Shown: in pieces, positions 1 to 51,510 of the stretch
How the letters are laid out: every line of letters starts with the position of its first letter
Numbering within the stretch: position 1 is the first letter of the stretch
Assembly: GCA_015179025.1 (NCBI GenBank)
Contig: WHUX01000015.1
Span: forward strand, 124,001-188,000
Length of the DNA stretch: 64,000 bases
Direction of reading: 5' to 3'
Source of the DNA: Terfezia claveryi
Lineage: Eukaryota; Ascomycota; Pezizomycetes; Pezizales; Pezizaceae
The notes under the pieces: generated by a model
Database searches by the model: none
Told to the model about the DNA's origin: nothing
What the model saw: only the letters and a program-made list of their open reading frames with translations
Translations under genes and position numbers: made by a program

Positions 1-2107
1 AGCTTTGTCGAGGTTGTGTGGGGGGCAATTTCACATCTAGAGTAAGTACTTAAGTACAGTACATTGTTACTCTACATACATAGATATGAGAAGGGGGGCG
101 GTATTCTGAGTGAATAAGACAACTGTATAAGCAGCTATGTTTCCAACAAACCCAAGGGAGCATGAAGCAAGTATCAAAAATGTCCGCAAAATAAATAAAC
201 CATAGCTCGACAATCTATCTGCACATGCACATCAAAACATGCCCCCATCCTTCTTCCTCTCATTGTAAAGGGTCAGGGGTAGTAAGGAATTTTACCACCT
301 CCTTATGGCCATTCCTCGCTTGCAGCATCGACCGCTGTTTCCTCACTATTGTTAACCTCCCCGATTTGCACCCTTTTCCAAAAATAGCTTCACAAACTCC
401 GTATGCGTAGAGTGCTATGTATTTGTCTAGTGCCCGTAGCGTCCTCTATGTTTCCTCTCCAGCAGCAGCTTCACAATTTCTACATCTCCAATTCGGGCTG
501 CCATGATCGAAGAGCGCCGTTGTCTCGTGTCCGATACCATTTAGTTCGGTCTAGGGCTCGCAATCTCAAGCCTTGGAGTGATCCCAAACTCTTATATTTT
601 ATGAGCAGTTTATCCAAATTATTCAATACATTATATACATCTCACGCAAACTTGGAGATGGCTAAGATATCGCCGACTGAGTATCCGAAAGCTCACTTGA
701 AGGCGAGCGGTGATGGGATCTGACTCAGACTATCACGTCCTCTCTATGTGTTCTCTTGCTGAGACCGATTTATTTTTGTCCTATGTATAATATCGACCTA
801 GGTCCTTGGATCTTCAACGGAATGAATATCTGATAATTTTTGCTCTTGTTGTTGCTGTCTTGCAATCCGGGAATTTGGGAACGGGGAACGGGGAACGGGA
901 AAACTATTATTTTTGCCTTCCTGTCTAGCTGTGCAGGTGTTGGACCATTGGTAGGCAATTGCATATTTGTACCATACAAACGAAATCCATGTCACGAGAT
1001 CACGATATTCAGTTGGTACAGCGGGGGGAGTACCTATGTACAGTACTTAGGACACCGTCGCTTAAGTAGTAGTTCTGGTAGCTACAGACCGCTCACATAT
1101 ATACTTAGAACCAGTACCTACAGCGACACTCAAAATCTGTCGGCGGCTACGTCACTCACTCCATGTACATCTCTGCAACACAACAGATGATGATGTACCT
1201 TATATGATTAACAAGGTAGGTCCGACAAGGTGGTCTCATAGTAAAATGTAAGATTCCTGTGTTTATCTCTAGCCTCACCTACTATTACTCCACCCTTGTG
1301 GAATAAAAATTTCATGTCCATGAAGTCGATATCAACCAAGGAATTTAAGAATTACCCTGAGCTCTCTCCGACATGTTTCTAAAAAGTAGTGGTGGTAGTC
1401 TGGTTGGCACTAGTGGATGAGGCTAAAATCTACCAGATGGGCGAGAGATCTAGATATACAACCCGCTCACATACCGTAAGTACCGCCAACAAGACTTCGT
1501 ACCATAGCAGCCACTTCATGTCAACTGAATATATAGATTTCTTGATATGAAATAGAAATCCTCCTCGTAATCATAATTCCGGATGCACAAGGTAATTGCT
1601 TGTTTATTTGAATTCTGGAAATTTTGTTATAGAGGCCGATTTTTCATGTGAAACTGCTTGCTGAATTAATGTACAATAGTTTGAGCGCTTTGTTATCCAA
1701 CTGGCCATAGCCATTTCACATTTCGTCATGCTTTTAAATATAAAACAAACCAAACCACATCAACAAAATTAACATAAAAAGGAAACAAAGGAGAAAAAGG
1801 ACAGAAAAAGGAGAAGATAGATAAAACCATGGTACTTTGTCTAGATAATGCTCAAGACTCCCAATTCCATCCATCCCACGACCATGGGCAATAAAAACCT
1901 ATGAGAACATAATCCAGTCAGAAAGCTAACACAGCCAACACCAGTCGGTCCTTGCTAATATTTCTGTAACATTACGGTTTTTCTCCTCCCCCAACATCTG
2001 CACAAGTCTCTGAGAACTCAAAAGAAACTTTGAAACAAATACAAGAAATACAAAGATGGATAAGAACACTTCCCCACCCCATAGGTCGAGTTGAGCTCGC
2101 TAACCAC
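1..2107. other. Intergenic region with no recognised gene
   Basis: I see only short unconvincing open frames and no familiar protein motif. The stretch contains one TAGTCTGG micro-insertion at 1396-1410, listed separately. The last few hundred bases are the 3' flank of the minus-strand gene that ends at 2108. Confidence 0.6.
1396..1410 (+). repeat. TAGTCTGG micro-insertion with near-perfect 9-bp flanking repeat
   Basis: The 15-mer TAGTCTGGTTGGCAC lies between TAGTGGTGG (1387-1395) and TAGTGGATG (1411-1419), which match at 8 of 9 positions. The same 15-mer occurs at 41102 and 43927, and inverted at 17258-17272. That makes it a dispersed element end rather than local sequence. Confidence 0.7.
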
Positions 2108-5100
2108 TTATAACTCATCCATTACCTCTTCATACTTATCCTTCACCTTCTCCGCGGCCCTATTCGCCGCCTCTCTCACATCCTTCCCCACATCCTCCAC
2201 TGCCTCCTTCACTCCCCCCATCATCTCTTCGAACTTATCCCCTCCAGCCTTCCTACCCTCCTCATAAATCTCTCTCAACTTCATACTCGCACTCTCCACC
2301 GCACTCTGCAACTTCGCCTCGGCTCTTTCCACCATACTCTTTTCCTCCTCCCTCCCACACAACGCCTCACTCACAGCAGCCTTCGCTACCCCAAGATTCT
2401 CCCCAACAATAATTGTCGCAGCTTCTACATTCTCCTCAATAACACTCGTAGCAGCATCCAGGTTCTCCGTAATGACACTTGTAACTTTCTCAAATGGGCT
2501 CTTGGGGGTGCCATATACGGCAATACTAATCTCCGTAGATGCAGATTTTGACACTTCGGAAATCATGCTGGCCGCGGCTTCAAATGCACTGGTCTCCCGC
2601 CCATAAACTGACTCAGAGGCCTTGCTTGCCACGGAGTCATACGCCCCGCCGACAGCACTAGTTGCCTTCTCAAAGGTACCCTTCTCTCGGCCGTAAATCT
2701 TCTCGCTAGCAACCTCCACTATCTCTTGGAGTCTGTGATTTACAGCATTTAAAATATTCTCAACAGCTGGTGGTTGGGTCAGCATGCTAGCAACATTGCT
2801 AGAGGCAGCTTCAGCAATTTCTTTTACCACACTCGCGGCGGTTTCCGCTTTCCCTTGAACCACATTTTCGCCAGCCTCAACTTTCTTATCCGCATAAGCC
2901 TTCACAGACTCCACTGCCTCGCCAGCTAGGGAGACCATAGACTCGGAAAGAGACTGGGGGTTACCATAGATTTCCTCTGAGGCAACATTTGAATGCACTT
3001 TATCTGCAATGTCCTGAATTTTCTCAGAAATGACTGACGCAATGCTTTCAGTTGCCGGAGTTGGAGTGCCATAGATGACTTTGGATGCTGACGCAACTGC
3101 TGCACTATACTTGTCGGTCGCAATGCCCATGTATCCTGGCTCTGGTGTTCCATATAGAGCACTAGAGGCTGCGGTCCAGGCTGAGTTGTACAAGTCGCTT
3201 GCAACAGAGGTAATACTTTCACCCACTGGTTGTTCTATCTTCGTGCCATAAATTGCTTCTGATACTGCCTTGGAAGCATGATCTATGGTATCTACGGCGT
3301 TGTCCTTGAACTCTTCTACGGCATCCTTGAGCTTCTCGGTCAGGGTGTCCTTCCATGCCTCCTCATTGCCCACCATAGCATACTGAGCTCCGAGCACCCC
3401 CTGAGCTTCTGCCATCACAATTCCAGCTGGTATCTTTGGGGCTGGATTTTCTTCAGGAGTGGCCTTAGTAGCCTCCTCCTTTGCTTCCTTAGATTCCCGG
3501 TTGAGATATTTATCCGAAAAGTCCTCGGAATAGTCATTCAACTCAATTTTCTTCTTTGCAATTCGCTTGATCCTCGCCAATTCCCCCGCAACCTCCTTTG
3601 CCCTGGCATTCGCCCCGCCTTCCCACGCACCACCCTCCACCCAGTTAGTGATTTCATTCAACCGCTTATTTTTCTCAGCAGCTTGAACAATCTTAGCCTT
3701 GATGCCTGAGAATTCCTTCTTCAAGTCCTGATACCTAGCCCAGTCCTTATAGGTCACCCCGTCCACTTCCCAGGCCCATTTAATCCCAAGCTCTTGAATA
3801 CCACTGTCAATTAGCGAATCGAGCTTCTCAATAAGGGTATCAGCTTCTGCAGCCACTTCATCAAATATAGCGGCCAAGAACCTTTGGGACTCCCATCGGA
3901 TATCCTGAACAGCGTCCTTAATGAGCTTCCCAGCACTATAGATTGCCCCGAATGATTTATCAAAGGTCTCTAGCCTCTTGCTCTCCGTTTCTTCCTTTGT
4001 ATTGCCTGGCTTGTAGTGCTTGGCAAGATTCATGATAGTAGCCTTTAAACCACGCATCTCATTAGAGATCGTCTTGTCGAGTCTCTTCATTTGTTCCTCG
4101 ATAATTGGTTTTTGTTCTTTCATTGCTACAGCAGTAATCTGGTCGACCTTTTCGTTAAGGCTTTCAATGGCTTCATTGGCATACTTCTCAAATTTATCTG
4201 TGTAGAAATCGAGATCTTCTTCAATCTGCTTACGGGCAGCCTCCCTAGCAGCCTTTCTTTCCGGTATCTCCTCTTGAGCGGAGGTATGATCAGAGTCAGA
4301 GGAAAGAAAGGAGGATGAGTTCCTGTGATCATGATTAGTTATATTCCCCCAAAAAATTAAAAAGGAAAGATCAGCGAATGACCTACTCATTCCCGCTGTT
4401 CACTCTGTCTTTAATCCTGCCAACTTGAACCTCCACGTAATCTTTCCAGAGATCACTGACACCATGCCAGACATTCTCCTCAAGCCATTTTCCACTCACT
4501 CGAGCTCCTTCCTTGACATAGGGTCCCAAAACCACGATGGTAACATACCGCCCATTCTCGTATGCCCTATCAAGGTATGGGGATGCCTTCTTGTAAGTAG
4601 GAACGAGGTATCTATTATAGATCCCTCCAGATTGATGTCGTAATTTTCCCCAGTATGGCGAAGAAGCTGCTTGGTGGTATAGCTTATATACTCCAGATGA
4701 ATATGGAGCCAAGTGCTGGAGGTGTAGGTGATTGAATCCCGAGTAAGCCTGACCAACAATTGGGTGAAGCTTCTCCTGGCATTCCTTCTCGACAAAAGCC
4801 TGTGCCTTCTGGACTGTTGGCTGGATATATTTCTCATAGTACGTTGATGCAACCTCGAGGGCCGGGTAAAAGTAGGCTTCGTTATAATGAGAGATGTGTG
4901 GGGCAACCTTGTCAATGTAGGGCGAGACATAGTTCTCGTAATATGGGTTGGCAACATCCCGGGATTTGCTGAATACATGGCAGATAGTTGATGAGGATGG
5001 ATCTGGAACCGTAGGACACTGAAATAGTACAGTATAAAGGGTGAACCATAACAGGATCCTAACTCAAGAAATCAATAAGGTGTGCCTGAAAGAGTATTCA

Positions 5101-6566: not shown

Positions 6567-9500
6567 ATGTCGAACCCCTCTTTCAGCTCGCCGCTGGTGA
6601 ACGTGGACATTATGAACGATCCTGCCTATGCACCTCAGAAGTCCTCTATGGATGGAGCAAATGAACCAGACCATTGCCGTATATGCAGGTCAGAGGGGAC
6701 GGTGGAGGAGCAGCTTTTCCATCCTTGCAAATGTAGCGGCAGTATTAAGTTTGTGCATCAAGATTGGTGAACCCCCCAGACTCCGATAGTGTACTCTGTG
6801 AATGCTGGGCTAATTTCAATAGTTTGATGGAATGGTTACAGCACTCGCAAAAGAAGTACTGTGAGCTATGTAAAACACCTTTTCAATTCACAAAATGTAG
6901 GCGCCCTCTCTCTACGCTCTCCCAATAACTCCACTGACCCTTCAATTGAACAGTATATGATCCGGAAATGCCGAAAAACTTGCCGCCGCTCCTGTTCCTC
7001 TCCAGAGCTTCAAAACATATCGCCAAAACGATCTTGCTCTGGTTACGACTTGTGCTCGTTTGTTTCGTTTGGCTTGGGATATTACCATGGGTGGTACGAT
7101 GGATGTGGAGATTCTGGTTCTGGCTAGGTGATGGGGGTTGGGCTTGGTGGAGGAGACGGCCCTACTTTGTGGAGAGTCCACTGCCGAAGAATGCCACGTT
7201 TGCAGAGGATATCAACAATGACCTTGGTGGCAACCAAACGACAGACTCTCTTGAAGGCGGTGGTTTGAGTGACTTGGGCAATGGGGGTCTCTTTGTGAAC
7301 ATAACACGGAGCGAGACTTTGAAGTATGGATTAGCCCCGGCCCGGAACGAAGTATATTTCAAAATTCTAGAGCTGACATACAATCTTTTTTACAGCAAAA
7401 TATTTCTTGATACTTTCGAAGGACAAATACTCACTGCTTTGATCGTAGTTACATTTGTTATGATCTTTCTGATTCGAGAATGGGTAGTCCAGCAACAGCC
7501 GGACATCGCACTTGGTGGAGATGCTGGAGGTATTGGCAACTTGGCAGATCTGGACCAAGCTCCTGGAGAACCAGCAGTTGATATAGCCGAAGAGGACCAG
7601 GGGGGAGATGAAGAGGAGGACGGGCTTCCAGATGAACAGTTGCTAGATTCTGCTTTTGGCCGAGTGCATCCTCCGGGCCCAGAGTCCGAGACAGACCCTT
7701 CGGATGAAGAACAACCCGCAGTTCAGCAGCAGGTGGCCCCATTTGAAAGGCCTATTGCTCCTTTGAGGAGGAGAAGAGCTTTCCCACCTGTGGAGGAAAA
7801 TCATCCGCCTGCTCTAGGTGTAGGTACTGGATCCATATTTGGTGGTCAGGGTAGGGTATTAGGAGGAGGAACGTCAACGGCCCCTTCCACCTTTCAGCTT
7901 GACTCGGACAATCCCCGTAGACCTCAGGCCAAACGTGAGGTGATGGCTCAAGATACTGAGTTTCGAAGGCAAATTGAAGAACGCTTTGGTCCGGATTATC
8001 TGGAGAAGTTTGCTGCTTCATCGGCGACAATACCACAGATAAGGGCATCTATAATGAATAACATAATCGACGATGATTCCGATTGGGAGGACGAGGAGGA
8101 ACAGGGAGCCGAAAACAAGCATGGCGGTTCCCATCGCCATGGTAAGAGTACCACACCTCTTGATACTCCAAACCGAGAGCCGTTTCAAAGTCGCTCCACT
8201 GCCTCGGCGTCACCCGTAGGGAATATATTTGAGGAGGATAAACCAAATCCGAATTCCTCAACATGGGCTAAGAAACCAGAACAGAAGCCTCCGACAATTG
8301 TGTTTGGGGCAAGCCAAGGAACAAATTCATTTGGAGATTGGGAGATTTCTCAGCCTGCCTCTGGAAAACCTTTTCAATTCAGCGGTTCGAAGAGCACCCT
8401 AACAAAAGGTCAGATTTTCGCTCAAAGCTCTGGCGAGCAGGATGTACAGACACCATCAACGATAGATACAGCGGATAAAGGGAAGGGGAAAGCAAATGTT
8501 CCACTGGCCGAGGGAAATGGAGGTGTAACCATTGGAGAATTAAATGCCTTCGGTATTGACACTTTCACAAACGTCAACAACGAGCATAAACAGACAGCAC
8601 TGGAATTTCAGCCTGAGAAACCCCGAAACGCCCTACATGAAACCACAGACCCTTTGGAATATGAAAGTAAATGGAGCTCACGTGAACCACCTCTCCTTTA
8701 TGAAGGCTCTGAACAAGATGAGCACTATCGTGACTATCTGTCGGAGGGATATGAGTCGAATGACCCTCTACCCCAAGAAGCTGTTGAACCGGCTGCGCCA
8801 AATGAGAACGATCGAGTTCCGGCAGAACCTGGTGCTGCAGCTCGGGCTCTAGTTAGACCTGCTGGCGCTCGAGGAATTGGATGGCTCGATTGGTTTCTGG
8901 TTGATATTCCCCAAGTTGATAGGAATGCTGGCAACAATCGCAATGAAGACGCAGCAGCTCCACCAGCCGATGAAGCAGGAATTGCAGATATGGGAGATGA
9001 TCGTGATGCTGTATGGAATGTTGCCGTCAATCCCCCACGACCCGAGGGTGCGCAAAACAATCTGGAAAATGGCGTGAACGGCGCGGCTGCACCGCTTGAT
9101 ATAGATGAGGGCGATGACTTCGACGGCATCATGGAATTAATTGGAATGAGAGGTCCAATATTTGGGCTTCTACAGAATGCGGTCATTAGCCTCGTACTCA
9201 TAACTATCGCAGTCATGCTTGGAGTAGCCGTCCCATATATTTGGGGTAGGATCTTATTGACCGTTCTAGCACACCCCCTACTCTTTGCTGTCGTTATACC
9301 ATGGAGCCTAGCAGTATTCTGTGCTAATTTGATGATCGACACGGCCATTGGGGTCGCATGTTATACGCTATTTGTGGTAGATACTGGGCTCAGATTTATT
9401 TTGACTATGGGGTGGTGGTCAAAGGTTGTGAACTTCAGTCACAGCGAAGCACTCGGTACTCTCATGCACACATATGCTGCTGATGCATGGAAAAGAGTTG

Positions 9501-12171
9501 TACACAAGATCACCACCCTGGTATTAGTTCTTGCTTCGGATAGAACTTCAATGGAAGGGGTATCCATCATCGCTACACACCCTGAGACGTCGCATGCCTG
9601 GTTGGCTAGCAGGCAGCCTTGGGCAAGAGCCACACTTGCTATGTCCTGGTTCACAGAAAAATTCGCTGCATCTGTGAATTTGACATCCAACGCCTCCCAT
9701 AGCCTACAGATTGCAGCTCAAGAAAATAAAACGGCTTCGGAAGTTTTTTACACGGCATTTGCACATTTAGTGGAATTATGGAAAGAGCCCTCTATCAAGC
9801 AGCGCAATGCTACAATTATAATTCCTGCCGTGTCTGAAGCTGAAGAAGCTTTAGTCGAGTTTTCTAATAGTTCCTCTTGGACGGCAGCGGACCGAGTTGT
9901 AGCAGTGATTGCTGGCTATGTATTGTTCACCATCGTTGGGGCATGGTATTTGGCAAAGCATAGGTCTCAACCTGGGAGCTATCGAAGGCATCTCGAGAAA
10001 ACGTCAATAGAGCTGCTACAGCAAGCAGGTGGTGTAATGAAAGTCATTCTCATCATAGGTATAGAGATGTTTGTCTTTCCACTCTATTGCGGCTTGCTCT
10101 TAGGTACGATACAACCCCCGCTCTTAACTGTACTGACTTATGCTAATATCACCATTAGATGTTGCACTTCTGCCCCTCTTCGAAAATGCTACAATAATAT
10201 CAAGGATCCAGTTTACCAACGATCATGTTTTCACATCAACCTTTGTGCATTGGTTTGTTGGTACTTGCTATATGTTCCATTTCGCCCTCTTTGTGTCAAT
10301 GTGTCGGAAGATAATGAGGGCCGGGGTTCTCTGTGGGTTACTTAGCTTCAGCGCTTCTTGTGCAGGATTTCACTAACTGTTTTAGATTTCATTCGTGATC
10401 CTGATGATCCCACCTTACACCCCGTAAAGGATGTCCTGGAACGCCCTGTTATGTTACAGCTGCGCAAAATTGCGTTTAGTGCCCTGATTTATGGTTTCCT
10501 GGTGTTGGTTTGCCTTGGGGGCGTCGTATGGTTCATATTTCACCAGTTCGAAAGCGTTTTGCCAATTCATTGGTCTTCGAATGAACCAGTCCTGGAATTC
10601 CCGGTAGATCTTCTATTCTACAACTTCTTCATGCCTGTAGCTGTTCAATTCTTTAAACCATCTGAAGGACTACAGAAGATGTATACTTGGTGGTTCAAGA
10701 AGTGCGCGAGAGCTCTTCGTTTGACATCTTTCATGTTTGGGGATCGGCATGAAGACGAGGAGGGACACACCGTGAGAAAGACATGGCTCGCTACATTACT
10801 CTTCAAAGGCAGTGATGCAACCAAGCCAGTAACTGATCCAGCTACAGCGGATGTAGAAGAGCAGGACACTTACTTCCTTCGGGACGGCAGATTTGTCAGA
10901 GCACCGGCTTCGGATAGTGTTCGGAGGCCTAAAGGTCAAGCTGTGTTTATTCCTGTCACCGAGGATAACAGACGACAGGACGGGGAACCTGATCCTGAAG
11001 ATGGCGAAACTGGACCTAACAGCACGAATTTCCGCCTTGTTTATATTCCCCCTCATTTCAGGATGCGCATTTTCCTCGTTGTTTTTTCTATTTGGCTCTT
11101 TGCTGCGGTAACCGGTGTTGGAATTACAATCGGCCCTCTCTTGTTGGGAAGAACACTACTTAGGACGTTGGTACCGAAAAACCTACGGATGAATGATATC
11201 TACGCCTTCTCAGTCGGTATCTACATTATTGGCGGCATAGTTTATGCCATCACGACGTATCAGGCCGTGATAGATTGGTTCAATGGAGCCCGTATGTCTT
11301 GGAGAAACCCGAGTGAGGCCCAGAAAGTTATTCGAAACAATATCATGAGGGTACATCACTTCCCCCAGCTGGCATCAGTGTGATTTTTGCTGACACTTTT
11401 GGATAGGCCGTCAAAATCTCCTACGTTTTTGTAGCTTTTGCTCTTGTACTCCCAACACTACTGGCATTGATCATTGAATTCTACATCATCATTCCGATGC
11501 ACACGTACTTTTCCCAAGGCGAGACCCATGTCATTCATTTCATTCAAGATTGGACGCTTGGTGTCTTATATGTGAAGATGATGGGAAGCATGATGCTACT
11601 GGATCCAGATAGCCCCTGGGCCAGAGCATTGAGGGGTGTAAGTGCCACTTCTTGACACATATGAACATAATGATTGATTATCTACGTAGGTTGTCGCAAG
11701 AGGATACCTCGATCCTGATGTCAAGCTCGCGACAAGATGCTTTATTCTACCGGCTACGCTCTTCATGTCAACGGCACTTCTATTACCACTTGGTTTTGCC
11801 TTTGCTGCCACAAAAACATTCTGTGCGTTTGCTTCAAGCCACACCCATTATTTCCATTGTTTACTAATCCGTGCATGCAAATAGTACACGATGCATCTCC
11901 TAAGTTGATATCTCAAACCTACCGCTACTCATACCCAGCAGTATTCATACTCATCGTATTCTTGGGTGTGGGATACTTCTTCAAAATGTTAATGGACAAA
12001 TGGAAGCAGAGCGTGAGGGATGAGGTTTATTTGATTGGAGAGAGGCTACACAACCACGGAGAGAGGAGGCCACCCACTCAAGGACATTCAATCGGAGTTC
12101 AGACAGATGAACATCGACTAGAACCAGGACTTAGAAGGCGTGGGATCGAGCGAGGGTTGGAGGAAATTTAG
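6567..12171 (+). CDS. ssm4: ER/nuclear-envelope RING-CH E3 ubiquitin ligase, Doa10/Ssm4 (MARCH6) family
   Basis: Eight exons: 6567-6766, 6823-6896, 6954-10103, 10159-10332, 10386-11350, 11407-11637, 11690-11822 and 11885-12171, giving 1737 aa. The N-terminus holds a complete C4HC3 RING-CH finger: C37, C40, C54, C56, H64, C67, C80, C83. C67 is rebuilt across the first intron. It is followed by the family motif [11 protein letters not shown]. Many hydrophobic segments follow, starting with [22 protein letters not shown] long acidic, Pro/Ser-rich disordered loop (roughly residues 280-750) separates the first segments from the central membrane domain. The motifs [17 protein letters not shown] and [18 protein letters not shown] are diagnostic, as is the C-terminal [14 protein letters not shown]. 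Known role of the family: ubiquitylation of misfolded cytosolic and membrane proteins with Ubc6/Ubc7 for Cdc48-driven ERAD. All splice sites are GT-AG and in frame, and no defect is visible. Confidence 0.96.
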
Positions 12172-16954: not shown

Positions 16955-16966
16955 GCAACCAGACTA
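16955..16966 (-). repeat. CAACCAGACTA element end (TAGTCTGG family), without clear flanking repeat
   Basis: GCAACCAGACTA is the inverse of the recurrent TAGTCTGGTTGC end. The following nonamer TCCTCACGC finds only a poor match upstream, so its duplication is lost or absent. Confidence 0.45.
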
Positions 16967-17242
16967 TCCTCACGCCTTCTTGGGTTGAGGATAGGAGAAC
17001 CAAAATAGAAAAAAGCTATACAACTTGCAGCTGTTAAATAAACCCATGTTTTTGGAGTTGTTCTGCTCTCACTTGATTTGAAACCAGTTGTTGCACTCTC
17101 GTAATCTCTATACCTAATATCTCGGGCCTTGCTATATTGATCCTTCCAAGTTCACAATTATAGGCCTCATTATACTACCATACTGGGAATAGTTTACAAC
17201 CCCCTTTTGGACTAGTTTGTTTGTTATGTGTTGCCTTGCAAC

Positions 17243-17272
17243 TCTCTACCGAAGCTTGTGCCAACCAGACTA
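17243..17272 (-). repeat. 30-bp TAGTCTGG-family micro-insertion with perfect 9-bp duplication
   Basis: The segment 17243-17272 ends in GTGCCAACCAGACTA, the exact inverse complement of the 15-mer found at 1396, 41102 and 43927. It is flanked on both sides by CCTTGCAAC (17234-17242 and 17273-17281), identical over nine bases. This is the classic layout of an inserted element with its target-site duplication. Confidence 0.75.
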
Positions 17273-20200
17273 CCTTGCAACAGGCGATAATGAATCCGAA
17301 TACAAAGACTCAAAATACCTTTAATCTGCCCCCCACCCCCAAAACCAACACAAGCCCAGCTCTTTGACCCCGTCCTCGTTTTTATAGCCGAAAACCAATA
17401 CCGAGCTGTGAAGCTTAGAGTGGAAGGGAGGTCAAACGAAGATAATCCGGCAGATTTTGATTCAGCTGTATAAGCATCCTTTGTACCAAGCCGCGCAGCG
17501 AATAGAGTATATCCCGTTTACAATTCCCCTCGCTTTGGCCTCGAATTTCATCGCCTTTGTACTTAGCCCCCAACCTATAATCCCTGTATTGCTCGTCCAT
17601 TGGCTCTCGGAGAACAGAATCTTGAAGCTAGATAACTCCGTGCTACCGATATAGTGAACCGGGGTAACTTGCAGAGAAGTAGATCTACCCAAAGCTGGAA
17701 GGGTGTTTTACCCCCCCTACAGTTGGTAAACTACAGCCCGAGCCCTTGTCAATGACTGGAATAAGTCACTATCTGTGCAGACAGCTAATCCTGCAAATAA
17801 TGAAGTCGTTGCTGGGGAAGGGTAAATTTTGAATAGTTTCTGCGGTAGAGTGGGACTAGGAGGGAACTGCTGGTGAGGATTATCCATCCATGGCTCGTTT
17901 TATTGTTCGTTTAGATCTACCAATTTATGTGATTGTGTTGCCTAAGGATGCTACAGTAAGGGGGGTTGAAGATCAAATTTTTTGACGCCCTTGCTATGCA
18001 GCGCGCTTGATCCCGGTTTACGGTGAATATTCAATACGAATCTGTGCGCGGCTATGATCGTTCTAATCAGTCAAGCACTTTTGCCACCTGAATGTATATC
18101 AGGTATATTTAATATCATCTCATCCATAACCAACATTACTATTTGATAGCGACCTTAAATCTAGTGATTTTGTGTTAGTATAAACAAGCCAAATAATATG
18201 TGATATAGAGGGCGTTAGTTGTCGAAATAAAGTTCTTCCGCTACCAGTACGATCCTTATACCACGGTTCCAAACATCGGTTTGAGACGTGCATATGCATG
18301 TGATGCTCACACATTAGTTAAGTTCCCACGTTTTGGTGTCTACCAACCCTAATTTCCCGCATCAACGTTCCAGAATGTTGACATGTAGCAAACCCAAATC
18401 CCACTTCAGAATTCCGCATTCTTCATCAATTATATGAGGATCCCAGTCAAATACGTTGAATAGAAACGGAATTTTATGTGATAGTGCTATGTTTCACAGC
18501 AGTTCAACAGTTGTTGCGGACAAGTTGGTGTTCCCTTATACACCGTACATGCATTACCCAATAACAATTGTGACCTGCACTTGGGGGGGGGGGCTATGCA
18601 ATTCGATGGTACTGTAGACCTAGGCGTACTCTCTAGTGTTTATTAACACATTTCCATGATAAAGGACATCATCAAACTTCAAAAACAAACTGAACAAGGT
18701 GCAAATTGTGCTGAAAGATAAAGGTATATGTCACTTAACAATATTATGAAGATGGTTAAATAGGTGTCAATTGGCATGTGAGGAAGGAACAAGCGAACGG
18801 AGATATCTCGGAAATGAGTCTGATCTATTGTCAGTCGCAGAAACCTCAGAACCGAGCGGAGAACATCGATACTTACTCGAATGGTGGGACACCAGGCTGG
18901 ATAATACTCTTGATTCCAGCAGGCTTTCGTTACATAATCTTGAACTACTTAGCTATAGGGGGTTTGGGGATGATGGGGGAAATTTGTATCGCTCATTGCG
19001 GACGATACATAGGCCACAGGTAGAGGAGAATTTAGCTTCTCTCGGACAGGGGTGCTGTGGTACTGCCGATTGGACACCGCGATCGAGAGCCCCAAAGGTA
19101 ATGGTCCTTCCTCCCATTGGCCTTCAACTAGTCTACCCTTTCTCTGGCCGGCATCTCGCACTTCTGCAACCAAATGGGGGCCATGAAAGTGGGGGTTGGA
19201 GTACTTAACGCCCAACTTAGTGCACCCCTGAGCGTTGTATTATCCAATAGTGAGGTGAGCTCAAGCTACCATCTAGGTCCCATGTCAGGTCAAGGTAGCA
19301 TGGAACTAACAATCACTCTGTAAAATTATTCCTCTGAGGGTCTGTACATACGAGGGGACGGTAATGGCGTAGCCTCTGTTTGCATTGCAAAGACAGTTAG
19401 GCTGCGAGCTGTGAAACCTTGTACTATTCTGATCCAGATCGAGAACAAAGCATCAACGTCTATAGGCTGTGACACAACTAGTTTCCCTCGTCACTTGGTT
19501 GGAAGTATCAATTGATACTCAAATTGCAAAATGTAAAAGAGAAGGAATGGTGCTGATCTCCAATGAAATCACAACTCGTTTTAGGCAAGGCTACACTGAA
19601 CTTCGGCACAATATACTGGAACAATAACATGTTATCTATCTTGTATTTCTGATAATTGTCTGGGAAGCAGATCTAGACTGAGTTATGTATCAGCCCTGTG
19701 CGAGACTGATCAGGCAATCCCGGAATCCCAATTTCCCCATCCACACCTACTTTAGTTTTGCCGTCCACAGTGCGGAGATGATATCGATACACGCAGCAGC
19801 GCCAGTTTGAAAACGGTCCAGGCTACAAAAACAGCAGCAGCTCTATACCAAAATCAATCGATACTAAGTATGTTTGCCTCCAGGCCTTCTAATCCACAAA
19901 TTCTTAAAAATGCCTAGAAAATACGGTTGCAGCGATTTTCACATACAGGTCCAGTTGCGGTAGACACTAGTCGTGATAGCACATTACTAATTGGTGCTGT
20001 AGTGAATCGGAACTGGAAGCTTTACTTAGTTGTATTGTTTACGCAGCACATGACAAAGGATCCAGACTAGGCAACCAGATGATCATGGCTACTTACAACG
20101 ACTTCGTAAGTTTTGCAGTCCTCACGCTTCATCTCTTTCAGATGTGTACTCCCGAATAGTATACTCTAACCACTCTTTCCAGAAAATACTTTTCATTCAT

Positions 20201-22652: not shown

Positions 22653-22660
22653 TATAAATA
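22653..22660 (+). promoter_or_regulatory. TATA-like box upstream of the velvet gene
   Basis: TATAAATA lies 194 bases before the chosen ATG at 22854. The distance fits a transcription start about 30 bases downstream and a 5' leader of about 160 nt. No start site is shown by the sequence itself. Confidence 0.4.
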
Positions 22661-23850: not shown

Positions 23851-26800
23851 TCTTGAAACCAGAGATATAGATGCGCTAGAGCTCCTTGGGGTGACTGCTA
23901 GGTGGTTGTTGTCCTTCAGCGTTCTTAGATTTCCTAAACGCACATGACCCTGTTATGAGAGGGATGGCGGTGTTTTCGAGACACGGAGTTAATGATCAAT
24001 TGGCTGTAATGCAGATCGGCGCTGGGGCGAGCTTACGGCATTTTCCAAAGATCCCAACGATGGTGCTGGATTTTGGGCACCTTGGAGTCTGGATTGAACT
24101 ATCTATTCGGGATTGGGATATATTTTTATTTTTTTTTCTTTCAACATCAAAAGATGTTCTATCTTGAGATAAATCTCTTTTGTTTTTGTTTCATTTGTAT
24201 GCTTTTGGGTTTCGTTTGGTGACTTCTTTTATATTTTCCCTGATGGAATAGACGTGTGATGTAGACTCGTTCAAGAAATTGTCGCCTTGTCAATCGAGGA
24301 TAAGCTGCTCCCCAGAACTGAGGATTTGTGCAACACAGAATTGGTAGAAACTGAGTGTGGTGCAGAGTTGGGCAGCCCTTGATGCTCTTATGTACTCGTG
24401 ATGGGAAGGAAGCTAAATTAAGTAACTGACTGCGTCACATTTCTGGTGATCTCCCCGAATGGATGTTTGCGGTACGGCACGGGAGCTTTTCCGAACCCAG
24501 GATTTTTTTTTTTTCATATCTTCACGTACCGGTGAATGAAAAAAGGATGAAATAAAAATAAACAACGGGATAATTGAAATTCGGACCTTACCTTGCAGAA
24601 TATAATATTGCGTTAGTCTCGATATGGCGTAATCAGTCTTAAAGTTCTATAGTCTGGTTGACTAGGTTCTAGTGACGATCCGTTGATCGTTCGTGGAAAT
24701 AATAGCTCCTGAAGTATGCCCCAAGTTGGGGCCGTCGGTTTTGCAAAGGTGAAGTGCAGGTGTCACAAACAATCCTTTCTAGTCAATTCGTAGCACAATA
24801 TATGCCGGATGTTTGGAAAGCCTGCTAGGTGGAGATGCAAGGTGTGTTTCACACTGTGATCTGTATTACGTGATTACCAGACAGATACGCTTGACTTGCT
24901 TGACCCTATTTGCTTTTGTGGTGATGCTTGGACAACCGGGGCTTGCTTCTACTGCCTTTATCTCTAATTTATTCCTCTTCGAGATTAGACCTTACGCTTG
25001 CCAGCTGCGTAAAACTTCAGTGATGGTCAATAAAATGGCGATAAGTACCGGTATTCCAGTAAAAGTGATATCGATCGCGAAGAACTACTTACAATGCCAT
25101 GTGCAATCTAGTCTGCTTACGGCCAAAGCTAGGTCCACAAGGCTGGCAAAAGCAAGTTCACCGATCCATTTCGGATCGTCCCGCACGTGGCTTGAACACC
25201 CTTGTAAGCCGATTAGCTGAACCCGAGGCTGAGAGGAAATCTAATTCGGACAACGGAGATAAAGTCGTAATCGCTACAATGCGACGACATCGGATGTCGG
25301 GCCGAAATCTATAAGCAGGAATTTGAATAAGTACAAGCGCCAGTGCCCTTGAAAGAATGGAAGAAAGAAGAAGAATATTGATATATATAGTGGCGGGTGA
25401 AAAACTCCTAGTGGGACAGCTGCAAGGTGGTGAGGTGTATTGTCAGTGGTATGGGTTGGAGTAGGAGGGGGAATTCCCCCTCAAGGGGAAAGGAACCTAC
25501 CCTCGTGACCAAAAGAATCAAGCTGCTCCTGAAGATCCTCAGGACAGGTATACCGGAAATGTCAGATATCTGAATCATGGAACACTCTGGGGATGTGCTA
25601 CCTCCTCAAGCTTGAATACGAGTAATGGGTTACTAATAAACAAGTGCGTATACCCTAGATGAAGTGTACAAACTTGCAACCCTCGTTTGTTTTTCATTCC
25701 TTTTCTTTCCACTTTCTTTCTTTTCCTTTTATCTTCCCTTTCGATTTTATTTAATTTAGCACTGGAGGGGAGATAGAGGACATTCACTCAGCATGCTGAG
25801 GGATACAGCCTCTCGTCGTAATCTAGATAAAAGTAACCATTTATTAACAAAAAAATGAATCAGCGCCCCAGAAGCACTCCAGGATTATCACACAAGAGAG
25901 CGTACATACGTACTTACCCTGATAAACAGGGTTACCTCTGAGTTTGCAACCTTTTTTATTTTTCAAAAAACTACTCATTACTCACATGCAGCCCCAGTAA
26001 TACCCTTACCTACTTTGGTCTATACCTCTTCTGCATGCTGTCGTACCCAATTACATACCTTAAGTAATTGCAGAAACTGCATTTGTACCGCCGCCGGCAA
26101 CCCTTCTATGTGGCGTGCGAGCTGTCGGCACCCGACTCGCAATTGTGCATTGAGGGGCAGTGTCTCAGCCCTCCCTAGAACGGTGCAAGTAATTATCAGT
26201 ATGCATAGTGCCTAGAGTACATTTACTTATACTATGACGAGCAAAAGAAGAAATACTTGCCATTATAGTACTAGTTGGCGCAGTTAATAATTATAGATAT
26301 AATATAATTAAGTACCTTACGTCCAGAAATAGTAGTATCCAAAATTAATGCAAATTTCGGCTATGATGTAGCCACCTGATTTAAACTACCACTGAAATAA
26401 TCGGTCTGGGCACTCAACCATTCTATGGACAAAATCATAGTTACCGCAAGCATTTTCATTGCTACGATATTGCATTTGGAGGCAATGAAGATTTACACTA
26501 TGTATATGCAGCACAACTGTTTGACAAAGGGTTAACCGTACCTAGTCTCATGCCAAACTGTACCCTCACCCTGTTCTCCCCCGATGCCCAATCGCATCCC
26601 CGTGAATGACAAGAGGTTATTCATTTACATCAATTCAGTTATACTATCGCTCTGCGCCCTCAGCACACGCTCGCTCGAAGAGGCTGGATATTTTTCTGTA
26701 CGGCGATAGCGGTGCCACGATGGGAACAACGCCGGAGGAGGCAGTTGCGGGTCGTGTATTCGCGCCTGTGCAGTTGCCTACTTCCGCTTTCGGGAATGCC

Positions 26801-28610: not shown

Positions 28611-29055
28611 TTAGACATTTTATATTCTATGGGCTAGATCGCTTTGATTCAGGAATTTGTTCCCGATAGAGCTGTGCTCGCCCACCATCGGTGTGTTTCT
28701 GCGATTGGAGTATGTGGTGCTGACGACATTATAGACGACATTGTGAACTTTCCTTGCGCACTTCCGATGTGGAATCTTCTGCCTTTAAGCTACATACACT
28801 CAGAGTCATATTTTTTTACTAATTGGCTGGGAGTTTTGCCTAAACCTAGTCTCGTGCCCCCCTAAACCCACACACTAGTTATGCACATCTACGGCTTATG
28901 CATTCAATTCCGCAAGTATGCAGACTTTCTTCATGATATTGAACATTTTCCCTAACGAAAAAACCTGTCAGCCTGCTGCCATGCATTTACGCTGAATATG
29001 CGCTTAGACCGAATGCATATTCAGAAGTTCGACCCTATGCCATGTAAGATATAAA
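28611..29055. other. 3' flank of the GTPase gene, no gene seen
   Basis: About 450 bases lie between the transposase relic and the stop codon of the GTPase gene. The frames are short and carry no motif. Part of this may be further decayed transposon sequence. Confidence 0.4.
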
Positions 29056-30336: not shown

Positions 30337-32555
30337 TTTCTCAAGGAGTTACAGTACTCTATCTTTCGTTTGCGGGTGAACTTTGTTGGCAGTCGTAACC
30401 TTTGGACGAGAATTCAAAGTAGAGAAAGGTAACGATCTAGAGCTGGTAGACGGTATTAATTCGACCGGCCAGAAGTATGTTTTGCAACGTGGCAGTTCCA
30501 ACGCTTTGATTTGCTGTCAATGCATGAGAGCGGGGTTGAGGGCCTGAATTTATATATACATTAAGTCATGTCAACCAACCACAGATATGGCCACCACGTT
30601 CATGTATACCGATCCAGAAACTCCAGAGCGTCCTGCAACATCGCCAGGGCTACCTACTGCCTTCCAATGTCGCACTTACATAGTAGCCGCATTCGTCATG
30701 GTATTAGTGATCATCAATAACGGCTATATATACAAATAATCCATCATATGGAGGTGTTCTTGACGGGCAACCGTACAGACACGGAACGAAGCGAAATGCC
30801 TTCGCTTGTTACATGGCTATGCGATTTATGCCGTGCAGGAGTCACAATCAGTGGCATCCATTATTTGCACCAGATATCCCATGAGCGATGCAGGGCTCCT
30901 CTCTGAGAAATCTGCGAGCATTTGAGTTGATGTGCAATATGGTTTTTGTCACCACAAATTAGGACAATGTATCTCTTACTGTTGGTGAAGAATGGGAGAC
31001 AGAATTCAGGAAGCTGTATTGGATGGCGATGATCCAGATAGCGCAATTACGGCTAGGTTTGATGGTACGGTAGAAGAAGCCAAAAGAAACTTAGGATCAC
31101 TTTAATCACGAGGGATACTGTGCTTGCCATCCAAAGAGAGATTGTTATTTTCAAGAAGGAACTATCAATGACCAGCATCCGGATTATCAGTGAAGAACTT
31201 GAAAGGAACCAGAAGCTTTTGAAAGTGAACTGCATCAAGTGTAGGACGGCCTCCGCTATGTAACGAAAATGAGTGATGAAATACAGGCACGGATGACAGC
31301 ACAGGCGGAAAAGGTTCAAAGGAGCTGGAGCAACCAAATATAAAGAAGGAATGGGACTTTATACGAGCTTCTTAGGTGGGAAGAAAGGCATGGAATCTTA
31401 GCTCGCTGAGTTCAGGAGGGGGTAAACGAAATAGGATTTCTCTCGGGATGCATATCATTATTCTGCGGGTCCCAGTCACGAGTTGACAACTTTGGTAGCC
31501 GACATTAATTCACGGGAATGACGCCCTATATGTGATTTCTGAATCTTACTAATTGGAGTGCATAGTTAGGTATTATATCGTAGGTATTGTCAGATACGTA
31601 TGGTCGAAGGAGAGAGTATCGTTAGATGTAGTCTGGCTTCGTTATACGCCTAGAGTAGACCTGTAGCTTATGTTCCAAGGTTTCGTACTTGATAACTCTA
31701 GGTTAACCTAAATTGAGGGTAACTCATATTTAGTCTCGTTCTTGTTTTTGTATCATTTAAGCCATTAACATTCCGCCATGCAGTCGCGCCGCAATAAACA
31801 GAAAAGGGTAAATTGTGCTGCAGGCAAGGCGATTATTTGTTGCGCTGGCGCGTACTAAATTTTCAAATATACAGATGTCTACGGAAGCCATATATTCTTA
31901 ACTTTTAAGACACAATGAGGTTATGGAAAATTATGGTGTATGAGGGCCAGATGCACTGCTGCTGAAAAAGGCGTGTAGGGGACTTAAACATGCCCAACCT
32001 CTTCTGCAATAATGGTCGAGATGTTGTTGGAAAGGTTCTGTTTGAACTCTAGGCCCAGTTCCTTATCTACTTATGGCTTACCTTATTCACAGCTATAATC
32101 CCGCTTACAAATGGAATAACACATGATAGTATGGAATTCTTGAAATACATGTATATAATACAGCTGGAGTAGGTAATAGATTTCAGATAATAGCAATCAA
32201 GGCACTCGATAGCCCAATCACCAGTGACCTTTGCAGACTCTCGCAACCTCAACTTAGCTTGCTTGTATCAACTCCCTCTATTCTTCAACGACATAGTTGA
32301 AAATAGATAGCGTGATGGCTACAGCTAGTATCTGTGAGATCGCATTGATTATATGTCGTGTAATATTGTGCTCCCATGGTACTGGTTTCCTCAATCTAGC
32401 ATTGTGTCCCGCCTTGAGAAGGTTCTATTATTTCTACCAGTATCATTTGTAAACTGTCAACGCGAGAAAAACATGTCGCGCCTAATGCCCAAGCCAAAAT
32501 AATACTACAAAGAAGCCCGAACACAAGCTAGAAATACAGTACAATGATCGGAGTT
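30337..32555. other. Intergenic region with a possible decayed coding stretch
   Basis: On the plus strand from about 30990 to 31370, short open pieces in different frames read like a charged coiled-coil protein: one with DGDDPDSAITARFDG, one with QREIVIFKKELSM and one with MSDEIQARMTAQAEKVQRSW. They do not splice into one frame that I can find and match no family I recognise, so they may be a gene relic. A TAGTCTGG micro-insertion lies at 31629. Nothing else is seen. Confidence 0.4.
31629..31639 (+). repeat. TAGTCTGG micro-insertion with 7/9 flanking repeat
   Basis: TAGTCTGGCTT (11 bp) sits between CGTTAGATG (31620-31628) and CGTTATACG (31640-31648), matching at seven of nine positions. Confidence 0.5.
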
Positions 32556-40443: not shown

Positions 40444-40511
40444 TCGTTCTGATATGTCAACCAGATAAGTTCTGATGTGGAGGGGTAGTGCAACCAGACT
40501 AAAGTTCTGAT
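40444..40511 (-). repeat. Nested micro-insertions with repeated GTTCTGA flanks
   Basis: A 26-bp segment (40476-40501) ending GTGCAACCAGACTA is flanked by AAGTTCTGA at 40467-40475 and 40502-40510, identical over nine bases. Immediately upstream a 14-bp segment (40453-40466) containing CAACCAGAT lies between TCGTTCTGA (40444-40452) and the first AAGTTCTGA (7 of 9 match). Three copies of GTTCTGAT thus bracket two related insertions, suggesting two successive insertions or partial excisions at one site. Confidence 0.65.
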
Positions 40512-41101
40512 ACGTCGTAAAGTTGGCCCACATATCGAACGGGACGTATAGCGTGTACATTCACCTAACGCCACATTGTCATTACAACAAAAAAGTTGGC
40601 ACTCTGTGAGACAATAAATTTACGAAAATACCTAACTTTAGAGAAGTTCAGCTGCCATACCTGAGTGCCCGTCCGAGGAAACCAGCGGCTGCCAACAGGC
40701 CCAACTTACTAGGTAATTGGTGAGATTTTGGCTTAGCGAGCAAGACACATTTAGATCTGTTATGTTTGTCATGTACCACACTGCGCCTGCTTCCGCCCCG
40801 CAAAGGTAGTAAAACAAGAGAAACAGTACTAAGTAGATATAGTGGCTATGGTATATAAATGGGAGCAAACATATAGTGGTATTACAGATCACCGATCATA
40901 GAGTCCGATGAACTAGATGTGTGTTGTAAACAAGTAAGAAAGCGAGGTCCCAACCACTCAGATTCAACGTGCCACAGCCCACTGGGTCGGGAGTGCACTG
41001 CTGAGGCATATGTAGGCTTCGGGCTGAAAGCTTAAAGTAATGACGTTATATTAATATTTTTGGCCGGGTGGACGAAGCGAAACAGGAGGTTGGGAAAGTC
41101 T

Positions 41102-41116
41102 TAGTCTGGTTGGCAC
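41102..41116 (+). repeat. 15-bp TAGTCTGG micro-insertion with perfect 9-bp duplication
   Basis: TAGTCTGGTTGGCAC is bracketed by GGAAAGTCT at 41093-41101 and 41117-41125, identical over nine bases. Confidence 0.75.
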
Positions 41117-41449
41117 GGAAAGTCTGCGGTATGGAAAGAAGGCCGGCCACACAAGTCAACCCGAACTCAGTGACTGGTGCAATGGTCCCTGGAGAGCTGC
41201 ATCAGTGGAGTCCGATCCTTTCGCTGCTAGGTTTGACAGTTGGGAATTAATTATCTAGCTAAGCTTTGTATGTACTTCTAGATCTGCGGTGAGACAGACC
41301 CGACAATCCAACTGATTTGAACCGAGCTGAAAATGGATCACAACAAGTTGAGTTGATCGTTGTACGTGGCCTAGCTCATGGCTGCTCAGTGCTTCGGTCC
41401 ACTATATAAGAAGCTTGGCACGGGACTTAGCGACAGAATCGTTTACATA

Positions 41450-41635: not shown

Positions 41636-41678
41636 CTCATACCAAGACCCCCGAGATACCGGTACGAGCGTGTTTACA

Positions 41679-41690
41679 TAGTCTGGTTAA
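41679..41690 (+). repeat. 12-bp TAGTCTGG micro-insertion with perfect 9-bp duplication
   Basis: TAGTCTGGTTAA lies between GTGTTTACA (41670-41678) and GTGTTTACA (41691-41699). The flanking repeat is perfect, and two further bases could also be assigned to it. Confidence 0.7.
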
Positions 41691-43926
41691 GTGTTTACAT
41701 ACCTACATTCGGACCAACTAGGTATGGTTTGCTGACTAATCTTACAACCGCCCCAAAGAACCTCATTGGGAAGTCGGTATTACCGAATCTGTCTAGCTCT
41801 GGTAGTACAAAGTATGACACTTTATTGTCGCTTGTACTTTTGCCTTACTACTATTTACTATTTCGGACGATTTTGGGTTGCCACATTCAGCCCCCCCACA
41901 AACTCTACGCGGGTACATTGCATACAAAATATAACTCTACAAATTTAATAACCTTCTAAAGTAGACCATTCTTTGGAATGACGCTCTATTTTGGTGGGCA
42001 TACTTGAGCTGAGTGGAGATTTCTAACCCCCACACACCAAGGATGGTGAGACTTTTGCCAACCGTTGTAGCAGGTTGGAGGTATTTCTTAAGCATCTGTC
42101 TTGCTTATCCGAATTCAGTTCGATCTACGAACTGATACTTCGCTTTCCACTACCAACATGACGAAGGTATTTCTTAGTCTAGTTAGGCTAATTTCAATGA
42201 CCCAACTCTATTGTACATCCTCGGGCTGCCAATCATGATTGGTAAAGGGGGCCTTATTGCAACCAATCTCGAGCTATTGCCTCATATATCTTGCTTTAAG
42301 TTTTGTAAATTCAATATTCTCTTTTTTCTCCGATATTCCTATTTCCATTTCTCCCAGTGGCCAAAAAAAATTGACCAATATCACGATTAAGCAACAACCG
42401 ATCCTAGCCTGCAGGGCATGCTTTGCATCGGCATACCCGAACCTGATCTCCAGCTTTGATCAGCACCCGTTGAGCTGGGATGTTGACATCGGGCCACTCA
42501 CATAATCTACAATTGACACACAGCTACGCCCCCCACTTGTTAATCCGCACCGGTACCGGCTCTTACGCAATCTAATATGACATTTGCAGAGTTGACAGCT
42601 TTCAGCTCGCCTCTCGGCTCCAGATCCGGGGGATCCGAGCTCGGGATGTAAGTGTGAGTTTGCCAATACAGAATTGTAAACTTTACAGGTCAAGATTGCT
42701 TACACTTACACTGAAAATAGTAAAACCATAGCGTTTCCAGTTTTCTGCCAACCCCTTTCTTTTAACCATGGTAAACGCCTCCTATTAATATTAAATACTG
42801 GTCGTTACATACATCTGCAGCCTCTGCGGCTGAGATTCATGTGTTAGTATCGCCACAACTTGAGTTTCAGTTCCCACAGCAGCAACACACCACAAAATCC
42901 ATGCTCTATCACGTCGCTACCGAGACCACCTCTTCACAATTCTGCATCTATCACAGACCCCTCCAGTCCATGCCAAACTCGTAAACACCCTTGCACTATC
43001 CCCATCCTTATCCATCCTAGCCACAGTGTTATCTCACTAAACTCGTCCCTAAAGCGGCCTAGGCCCGCCCTTGGTCGACCACGGCCACCCCCCGTATTCA
43101 TCTACCGAAGCGCAAACTAACCCCCCAAAATAAGACATCAATGCCTATATTCGGTATCACCCGCATTCGCCCGCAGCCTAACGAATTCAACGAACGAGTC
43201 CAGGCACCTAAGCCGACGACAATATTACTTAGATCTTATCCTGTCAGAATTCAATGCCCTTCTCCACTCTATCGCCATCTCTGTCGCGCAAGTAGATCAT
43301 GTCACATGCAAATTACCGATTGTCCGAGAATGGAGAAAAGGAGGGGAAAAAGGGCGAAAAACTTGCAGATCTAGAATAGGCGAAAGCAATCAGCGGCGAA
43401 GCCCCGCCCCGCCATGGATAGCCATTACTCTTCCCACTTCTGACCCAAAGGCTCGTTGGCCCGTCCCCGTCCTATAGTTTTTCCGTCACTACCTACAGTA
43501 CCTGTGTAACGTACGTGTAAGGCGTCTACCAGTAATCGGCAGGCCGGCAGACTCAATCAAAAGCAACCATACATTCCTATACGTGACGATCGGAGTCCTC
43601 AAATGTAACCACTCAGGAGGTTTAGATTCTTTTTTAGTGGCATTCAAACTCGTATTGCTCATTGCATGGATGTATGTATGTATGTGATCAAACAAAAGGA
43701 AACATATAATCAAAAAATGAAAGAAGAGATTGAGTAAAATAAATATGAGTGGGTAGTAAGTAAAGCCGTACAGAGTGATATAGATAAATATGCTATTCTG
43801 TTTCCATGCTAAAGGAATTGCGCCGCCCACCGTGCCCGTGAAAAAACAAAAGAAATTGGTGAAAAAAAGAGCTGCATAATCCGTAACCAATTGCCATAGA
43901 AAAAACTCAAAGAAATGCGTTAATCA

Positions 43927-43949
43927 TAGTCTGGTTGGCACCCAGACTA
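43927..43949. repeat. 23-bp palindromic micro-element with both ends and perfect 9-bp duplication
   Basis: It starts TAGTCTGGTTGGCAC and ends CCAGACTA, so it has both inverted ends and almost no interior. CGTTAATCA flanks it at 43918-43926 and 43950-43958, identical over nine bases. This is the most complete member in the window and shows that TAGTCTGG and CCAGACTA are the two termini of one element. Confidence 0.8.
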
Positions 43950-44344
43950 CGTTAATCAATCCCCCTATCCAGCCCAAAAAGTGTTAATCCACCGCTTAGT
44001 AAAGAACTCCACACTTTTCCGCCAATTCTCAGCCTTCCTGTTATCACCATCCCAGTCCTCCATAGTTCTACCAAGCCTGCGTTACCGGAAAAATTCCATA
44101 ACTTCCACTCGGCCTAATACCAATACCGACTCGCCCAACATTATTCATAAAAAGAAAAAAAAAAAGGACATAGGGAATTCGAAAGATTCAAGCGATTAAG
44201 CTACGGAAATAGGGATATTTGGACATGGAGAGTTAAGAAAAAAATACACTATAAAATGAATTCCTCCAGAAATGTACCTGGCGTGTACCAAAAGCAAATA
44301 AATCTGAAACAGTATCCCGGAGGATCCATTGCCCCACAACCGCA

Positions 44345-50029: not shown

Positions 50030-50043
50030 TAGTCTGGTTGCAC
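50030..50043 (+). repeat. TAGTCTGG micro-insertion with weak flanking repeat
   Basis: TAGTCTGGTTGCAC is flanked by GCACTAGAC (50021-50029) and CATCTAGAC (50044-50052). The last six bases match. Two inverse ends (AACCAGACTA at 50201-50210 and AAACCAGACTA at 50225-50235) lie 160-190 bases downstream, so a longer, decayed element of about 180-206 bp is an alternative reading. Confidence 0.45.
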
Positions 50044-51405: not shown

Positions 51406-51510
51406 ACTAGTCTGGCTAGCGAGCAGTTGCTTGCGATAATACAGCATACCTTAGTTAGGTAGTAGGCTTCAGGACTAACGCTTAGCCCTACCTAGGGCAA
51501 CCAGACTAGT
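51406..51510. mobile_element. 105-bp MITE-like element with TAGTCTGG inverted ends
   Basis: It begins ACTAGTCTGGCTAGC and ends GGGCAACCAGACTAGT, giving an inverted repeat of ten exact bases (ACTAGTCTGG) and partial similarity beyond. A second inner inverted similarity (TTAGTTAGGTAG against CCTACCTAGG) adds hairpin potential. No matching 9-bp direct repeat is seen at the borders. It is the best candidate here for a longer member of the micro-insertion family. Confidence 0.5.

Follow-up and report, generated by a model that had tools for sequence, protein, structure and literature searches.

One-ended micro-inserts with 9-bp target duplications in Terfezia claveryi, possible excision scars of a DNA transposon

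Mutator-like elements (MULEs) duplicate 8 to 10 bp of their target, typically 9 bp. According to the available part of one source (PMC5225508), their terminal inverted repeats (TIRs) usually exceed 100 bp, and constructs that lack target-site duplications (TSDs) can retain as much as 13 bp of a TIR after excision. Here we describe micro-inserts of the ascomycete Terfezia claveryi that have the 9-bp TSD of MULEs and of which most consist of a single short terminus beginning with TAGTCT. They were noticed in a stretch of 64,000 bp (contig WHUX01000015.1, positions 124,001 to 188,000; hereafter the window), for which a preliminary description had listed nine loci carrying TAGTCTGG or its inverse CCAGACTA. 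The family proved to be real and far larger than these nine loci, with thousands of copies in the genome.

The length of the TSD, seen in 113 perfect nonamer pairs, fits the putative link to Mutator proposed in that description and is its sole support; two MULEs of the same genome have other ends. A MULE profile search of the genome returned 21 domain hits. Five of these loci were read: two (L018 and L019) were MULEs with CGGACTGACTC ends, hairpin-rich TIRs and 9-bp TSDs (ttgttgagg and tgctaccta), and the ends of the other three did not resolve. The two intact MULE ends are CGGACTGACTC and not TAGTCT, and no transposase was linked to TAGTCT ends. Moreover, instead of long TIRs, the one-ended copies with a perfect TSD comprise 8 to 36 bp of one end. 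An autonomous element or transposase with TAGTCT ends, such as the preliminary description had proposed to look for, was not found in the part of the genome read.

Other described systems share some of these features. Many Galileo foldback copies are cut to a single terminus (64 of 170 are solo TIRs in the excerpted account, PMC3573991), but the same excerpt gives them long TIRs and 7-bp duplications, whereas the copies here mostly comprise 10 to 36 bp of one end, have a 9-bp TSD and number thousands. Yeast mitochondrial GC clusters are likewise very short dispersed hairpin units with small target duplications; as far as the available part of PMC4478555 goes, they differ in being mitochondrial and in their AG target, and our inserts lie with their 9-bp TSD on large contigs with nuclear genes and have a terminus in common with two-ended copies. 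In the P-element superfamily, cut ends have 17-nt 3' extensions (PMC7776569, in excerpt), and a long single-stranded tail of this kind at excision would explain scars with a discrete length of one terminus; the TSD is 8 bp there and 9 bp here. A two-ended minority of 30 to 54 bp with TSDs resembles extreme miniature inverted-repeat transposable elements (MITEs) or snapback elements, whereas most TSD-bearing copies have one terminus only.

The fixed 9-bp TSD also separates the micro-inserts from hAT elements, which duplicate 8 bp, from Helitrons, which make no target duplication, and from LINE/SINE retroposons, whose duplications vary in length. The hAT profile had 150 domain hits in the genome; the P-type RNase H profile PF21787 had none, its controls being likewise silent. 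In the open-licence PubMed Central (PMC) literature searched, we recognised no nuclear one-ended micro-inserts of such a kind.

Inserts with 9-bp target-site duplications

The genome searched comprised 72.56 Mb in 794 contigs. TAGTCTGGTTG occurred 5,960 times, compared to 57 for its reversed control, the sister end TAGTCTCRWKCM (TAGTCTC...) 1,670 times, compared to 88, and the exact 15-mer TAGTCTGGTTGGCAC 2,885 times, compared to 0. In all the sequence examined we distinguished 378 sites with TAGTCT followed by G or C, 161 of which had a TSD matching at 8 or more of 9 positions (two-ended copies being counted from both strands).

At 84 TAGTCTGG sites in the window and 14 loci, 36 flanking nonamer repeats were perfect, compared to 1.15 with shuffled flanks (two-ended copies again counted from both strands). 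Sixty-four copies of the 15-bp terminus, taken from the first 100 places among the 2,885 with the listed place C1:719325 omitted, gave 18 repeats at 9/9 and 12 at 8/9 (shuffles, 0.42 and 0.61); the remaining 34 had no clear duplication. A broad sample of 237 sites, covering the window, L001-L017 and L023-L081, gave, for inserts of up to 45 bp, 69 at 9/9 and 32 at 8/9 (shuffles, 0.57 and 1.87); this sample is non-random, L009-L016 having been picked around close copy pairs and L023-L081 for the exact 15-mer. Among 43 TAGTCTC sites, 9 were perfect and 9 matched at 8/9, with 0.13 and 0.87 expected. Control anchors yielded no perfect pairs (CAGTC, 0/259; AAGTC, 0/309; GAGTC, 0/208), and a mild excess at 8/9 for TAGA (22 versus 8.5) and TTGTC (9 versus 2.0) was taken as local repeats. 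The shuffles rule out a chance origin of the nonamer repeats and bear out, for the set as a whole, the earlier judgement that so many matches were too many for chance; the scoring of genomic copies against shuffled flanks that had been proposed as a check thus gave, on sampled copies, an excess far above the shuffles.

The TSD is 9 bp long, since only 23 of the 113 perfect pairs extend to position -10, about the chance rate. Its base preference is weak and two-fold symmetric, position 1 rarely being T and position 9 rarely A. When the flanks of 159 inserts were joined minus the insert and one nonamer, two paralogs resembled empty sites. The pair L035 and L014 is 97.8% identical over 89 bp, and in the pair formed by L002 and another stretch of L002 the right homology is short (about 19 bp); in both, the paralog lacks the insert and carries a single copy of the target nonamer. 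Two more candidates (L006/L015 and L007) aligned less cleanly. Together with the excess over shuffles, the two paralogous empty sites support the earlier claim of independent insertions: the TSD-bearing segments were inserted into their sites, each event duplicating a staggered 9 bp. An assembly artefact is unlikely, given that duplicated contigs share inserts (L083/L108 and L111/L118) and that paralogs without them exist.

Around the element of L110 and at L012:1174-1285, one nonamer is present three times with two different inserts between, as if a later insertion had hit the identical 9 bp again without any shift in phase. L131, L149 and L159 are three copies of one dispersed repeat with the same micro-insert in each; a single insertion was therefore later multiplied with its host repeat.

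In the window, TAGTCTGG or CCAGACTA is present at all nine reported loci. The five repeats given as perfect (17243, 40476, 41102, 41679 and 43927) are so, and the scores given for 24650, 31629 and 50030 are correct; that at 1396, given as 8/9, recounts as 7/9 (TAGTGGTGG/TAGTGGATG). The four imperfect repeats are each within chance singly, shuffled left flanks giving on average 10 of 84 sites at 7/9 and 38 of 84 at 6/9. The sites had been reported to lie between genes; no listed window site of TAGTCT followed by G or C falls inside an open reading frame (ORF) of at least 150 aa. Missing from the earlier list were further TAGTCTGG copies without duplication (16966, 20069, 50210, 50235, 51408, 51508 and 51968) and three sister-family copies with 8/9 duplications (24614, 26543 and 28847); that list had also made no mention of a sister end family, of polarity, of preferred lengths or of a hairpin near the terminus. 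The window copies with their flanking repeats are as follows.

17234..17281, minus strand: one-ended insert of 30 bp at 17243-17272 (TAGTCTGGTTGGCACAAGCTTCGGTAGAGA on the minus strand), perfect TSD at 17234-17242 and 17273-17281
40467..40510, minus strand: one-ended insert of 26 bp at 40476-40501, GTTGCAC subfamily, perfect 9-bp TSD
41093..41125, plus strand: one-ended insert of 15 bp at 41102-41116, exactly TAGTCTGGTTGGCAC, perfect TSD GGAAAGTCT
41670..41699, plus strand: one-ended insert of 12 bp at 41679-41690 (TAGTCTGGTTAA), perfect TSD GTGTTTACA
43918..43958, no strand given: insert of 23 bp with two termini at 43927-43949 (15 bp of one and 8 bp of the other), perfect TSD CGTTAATCA
26534..26564, plus strand: sister-family TAGTCTCATGCC insert of 13 bp at 26543-26555, TSD 8/9
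28838..28868, plus strand: sister-family TAGTCTCGTGCCC insert of 13 bp at 28847-28859, TSD 8/9 with the mismatch beside the broken end
24605..24630, plus strand: weak candidate, sister-family insert of 8 bp (TAGTCTCG) at 24614, TSD 8/9
1387..1419, plus strand: TAGTCTGGTTGGCAC, 15 bp at 1396-1410, perhaps an old copy, 7/9 repeat not significant alone
24650..24662, plus strand: TAGTCTGG terminus, 7/9 duplication not significant
31629..31639, plus strand: TAGTCTGG terminus, 7/9 duplication not significant
50030..50043, plus strand: TAGTCTGG terminus, 6/9 duplication not significant

One precise terminus and a broken end

TSD-bearing inserts begin exactly at TAGTCT. Each has a precise terminus, made up of TAGTCT, subfamily sequence and a subterminal hairpin, and a broken end opposite. 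Among the 96 inserts of the broad sample with a TSD of at least 8/9, 91 had one terminus and 5 had both; compound inserts (L023, L024 and L030) and inserts with only 3 to 5 bp of a second terminus (L009:3458 and L035) were scored as one-ended, and two-ended copies above 45 bp fall outside this count. The 91 one-ended lengths fell at 8 to 16 bp (45 inserts) and 25 to 38 bp (43), with only 3 at 17 to 24 bp (P=9e-9 versus a flat distribution over 8 to 38 bp). Insert lengths peaked at 15, 28 and 31 bp, and 15 bp, the length of the window insert at 41102-41116, was the most frequent single length in the broad sample. In all sequence examined, the short form of the GGTTGGCA subfamily was 15 bp in 20 of 26 cases, and that of the sister CGATC family was 11 to 12 bp (4 copies), ending 3 to 4 bases ahead of its own folded stem.

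The hairpin was investigated in 40 copies chosen for a complete 28-bp head from 251 genome-wide. Their TSD was 9/9 in 19 and 8/9 in 8, these 27 duplications representing 26 events since L131, L149 and L159 are one repeat. Eleven of the 19 perfect cases were 31 bp long (one being 28 bp plus CTA) and 5 were 28 bp long. The 3' part of the 31-mer is a hairpin, YCTC-GTA-GAGR, and among 27 copies the stem positions 21:31 formed a T:A pair in 11 and a C:G pair in 8, the other 8 being unpaired. Breaks avoid the 5' arm of this hairpin and lie mostly before it or in the loop and 3' arm. Of the 100 matches listed for a pattern open to both loop orientations, 96 had GTA inward, 1 had TAC and 3 were other; in the sequence examined, GTA outnumbered TAC by 59 to 3. 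The rarer CCTCC-loop subfamily has both orientations (TGT in L002 and L014, ACA in L011 and L015), and the polarity rule is thus demonstrated for the commonest loop only.

The two junctions also differed. The broken end meets the second nonamer almost flush, and among 42 one-ended 8/9 duplications the second nonamer had its mismatch at base 1 in 16 (P=5e-6) and at base 2 in 5. The transposon side is precise and the broken side trimmed, as in end joining. In a minority of inserts a few bases of the second terminus persisted (CTA, GACTA or CCAGACTA), and filler DNA resembling the other junction was visible in L158.

Exact two-ended copies of up to 60 bp numbered 46. Of the 40 that were fetched, 18 had a TSD at 9/9 and 2 at 8/9; all 20 measured at most 54 bp, and they include two pairs from duplicated contigs as well as the compound L110. 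Several others were neighbouring one-ended inserts or had a shifted or shorter duplication. Copies of 61 to 90 bp were found at 18 places, and the three examined whole had no matching nonamers. Joins of the two termini included 15+15, 15+10 and 15+8; we read the hairpin as belonging to each terminus and the palindromes of 30 to 54 bp as two tips joined. One identical copy occurs at L112 and L117 with perfect but different TSDs, and another at L102 and L105, the former without a clean TSD. Two TIRs per unit, as in a MITE, thus characterize about 20 of the 40 two-ended copies but only 5 inserts versus 91 in the broad sample. Extreme internal deletion, one of three origins suggested in the preliminary description, fits the two-ended minority and not the one-ended majority. 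For a second suggestion, a micro-element moved in trans, the only backing comes from the identical two-ended copies at different places (L112/L117 and L102/L105).

Possible origins of the micro-inserts

Of the three suggestions, the remaining one, footprints of excision in which a single terminus was retained, gives the best fit. We tentatively favour, with a probability of roughly 0.43, the reading that the micro-inserts are scars of a cut-and-paste DNA transposon that inserted with a 9-bp stagger and of which one terminus survived, trimmed to the hairpin. A longer element would have been inserted by a DDE transposase, to which the fixed TSD, the precise terminus and the weak symmetric target preference point. 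Later excision would remove the other terminus and the remainder of the element and leave one terminus behind as a single-stranded or resected tail, shielded by bound transposase and by the hairpin into which it folds. By end joining, this tail would then be sealed to the other copy of the target; the broken side of the inserts suggests such a role for repair. Now and then, a scar with both termini may be mobilized anew as an extremely small MITE. Excision scars are favoured since a small number of moving elements could produce scars by the thousand and since full-length copies were not seen.

Several observations weigh against this reading. In the window and L009-L022, there was no TAGTCT...AGACTA pair longer than 32 bp with nonamers matching at 7 or more of 9 positions. 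In 195 kb with 52 one-ended scars we counted 15 tandem 9-mers, several of which belonged to simple or tandem repeats; tandem repeats with periods of 8, 10 and 12 numbered 4, 1 and 11. Some of the 15 could be insert-less footprints, but such duplications, expected to be the commonest outcome if each end were lost independently, are scarce, which disfavours independent loss. In a mosquito MULE assay, about 90% of excisions were precise when TSDs were present, and it was constructs lacking TSDs that yielded the scars retaining as much as 13 bp of TIR (both from the available part of PMC5225508), so that the MULE footprint is a weak precedent. Solitary ends are not seen for the one MULE family whose ends are known: CGGACTGACTC with its next eight bases occurs genome-wide only at the L018 and L019 MULEs. 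Finally, DNA-folded hairpins were no better than shuffles in 6 of 7 subfamily strands; since folding beat the shuffles in only 1 of 7, the structure argument rests on covariation and break positions.

A possible explanation, and a close rival of excision scars, is aborted one-ended integration, in which the transposase joins a terminus to a 9-bp-staggered target break but fails to join the second end. The attached element would be trimmed as far as the hairpin and then sealed to the target end after fill-in, so that the insert is born one-ended and its site never contained a full element. This explains the rule of exactly one terminus (91/96) more simply than excision scars do, and it agrees with the few insert-less duplications, the trimming chiefly at the broken side and the lack of a parent in the part of the genome read. 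However, the two-fold symmetric TSD preference, although weak, is what attack on both strands by a paired complex would give, and numerous successful full insertions would be expected too. We know of no eukaryotic precedent for such an event. It is possible, though in our estimate less likely than not, that a eukaryotic transposase performs one-ended transposition routinely, inserting a hairpin-bounded tip of 15 or about 30 nt and duplicating 9 bp, with full-length copies almost absent; if true, thousands of single ends would have been sown through one genome.

We consider it improbable that the hairpin units of 28 to 31 bp are mobile themselves, one TIR and a hairpin end being accepted by the transposase as the second end. 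The preference for 31 and 28 bp (11 and 5 inserts, respectively, among the 19 with a perfect TSD), the loop polarity (96 of 100 listed) and the stem covariation are consistent with this notion, but forms of 10 to 15 bp without a hairpin have equally good TSDs, and trimming at the broken side is unexpected for a transposase-made end. Very improbable is an origin from symmetric palindromic MITEs of about 51 bp that lost one half by palindrome deletion. Two-ended palindromes of 30 to 54 bp with TSDs do exist (18 perfect and 2 at 8/9 among the 40 fetched), and the CCTCC loops show both orientations; the model fell to the polarity of the commonest loop, which should be half GTA and half TAC but was listed as 96 versus 1 of 100, and deletion at random would not place its break flush against the second TSD. 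If a small hairpin RNA were retroposed and its copies truncated at the 5' side, one constant and one variable end would result, but we hold this origin barely credible in view of the TSD fixed at 9 bp, the breaks lying after rather than before the hairpin as seen from the constant end, and the two-ended copies.

Each a readable natural scar of one transposition event, the micro-inserts are numerous, their TSD is intact and their break is mapped to the base, and they record where an unseen transposon acted. The avoidance of the hairpin 5' arm by breaks gives a structural rule for the stop of processing, and excision repair versus aborted integration becomes testable across sister strains. They also suggest that, where annotation ignores units of 10 to 36 bp, insertions made by transposons can be overlooked by the thousand in a single genome.

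Other repeats and genes

Two duplicated contig pairs, C3/C408 and C615/C773, were seen in the assembly. Over 10 kb, C3 and C408 are 99.7% identical, with mostly one-base length differences, few substitutions and one 6-base difference, which suggests uncorrected long reads or haplotigs; these 10 kb contained no polymorphic TAGTCT insert, which makes the comparison uninformative. L015:7000-7650 is a dense degenerate tandem array of CCAGCTCTTCTG / CCAGCCCTCCCCG.

The window contains, at 41450-41636, a MITE of about 187 bp with TIRs of about 35 bp (CCGGGAAAACTGGTGAATA...), flanked by TA and with about 40 other genome matches at approximately 75 to 91% identity. When an allele of window positions 40300-44200 was sought in the genome, the matches listed comprised only the window itself and copies of this MITE. 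A 33-bp tandem repeat of 7.2 copies lies within an ORF at 27391-27628. Over 99%, the product of the ORF at 6968-10345 (1,125 aa) shares 93% identity with a 1,713-aa protein from Terfezia claveryi, as fits a host related to the desert truffles (Pezizomycetes), and relatives in the same match list carry the names of DOA10 or MARCH6 E3 ligases.

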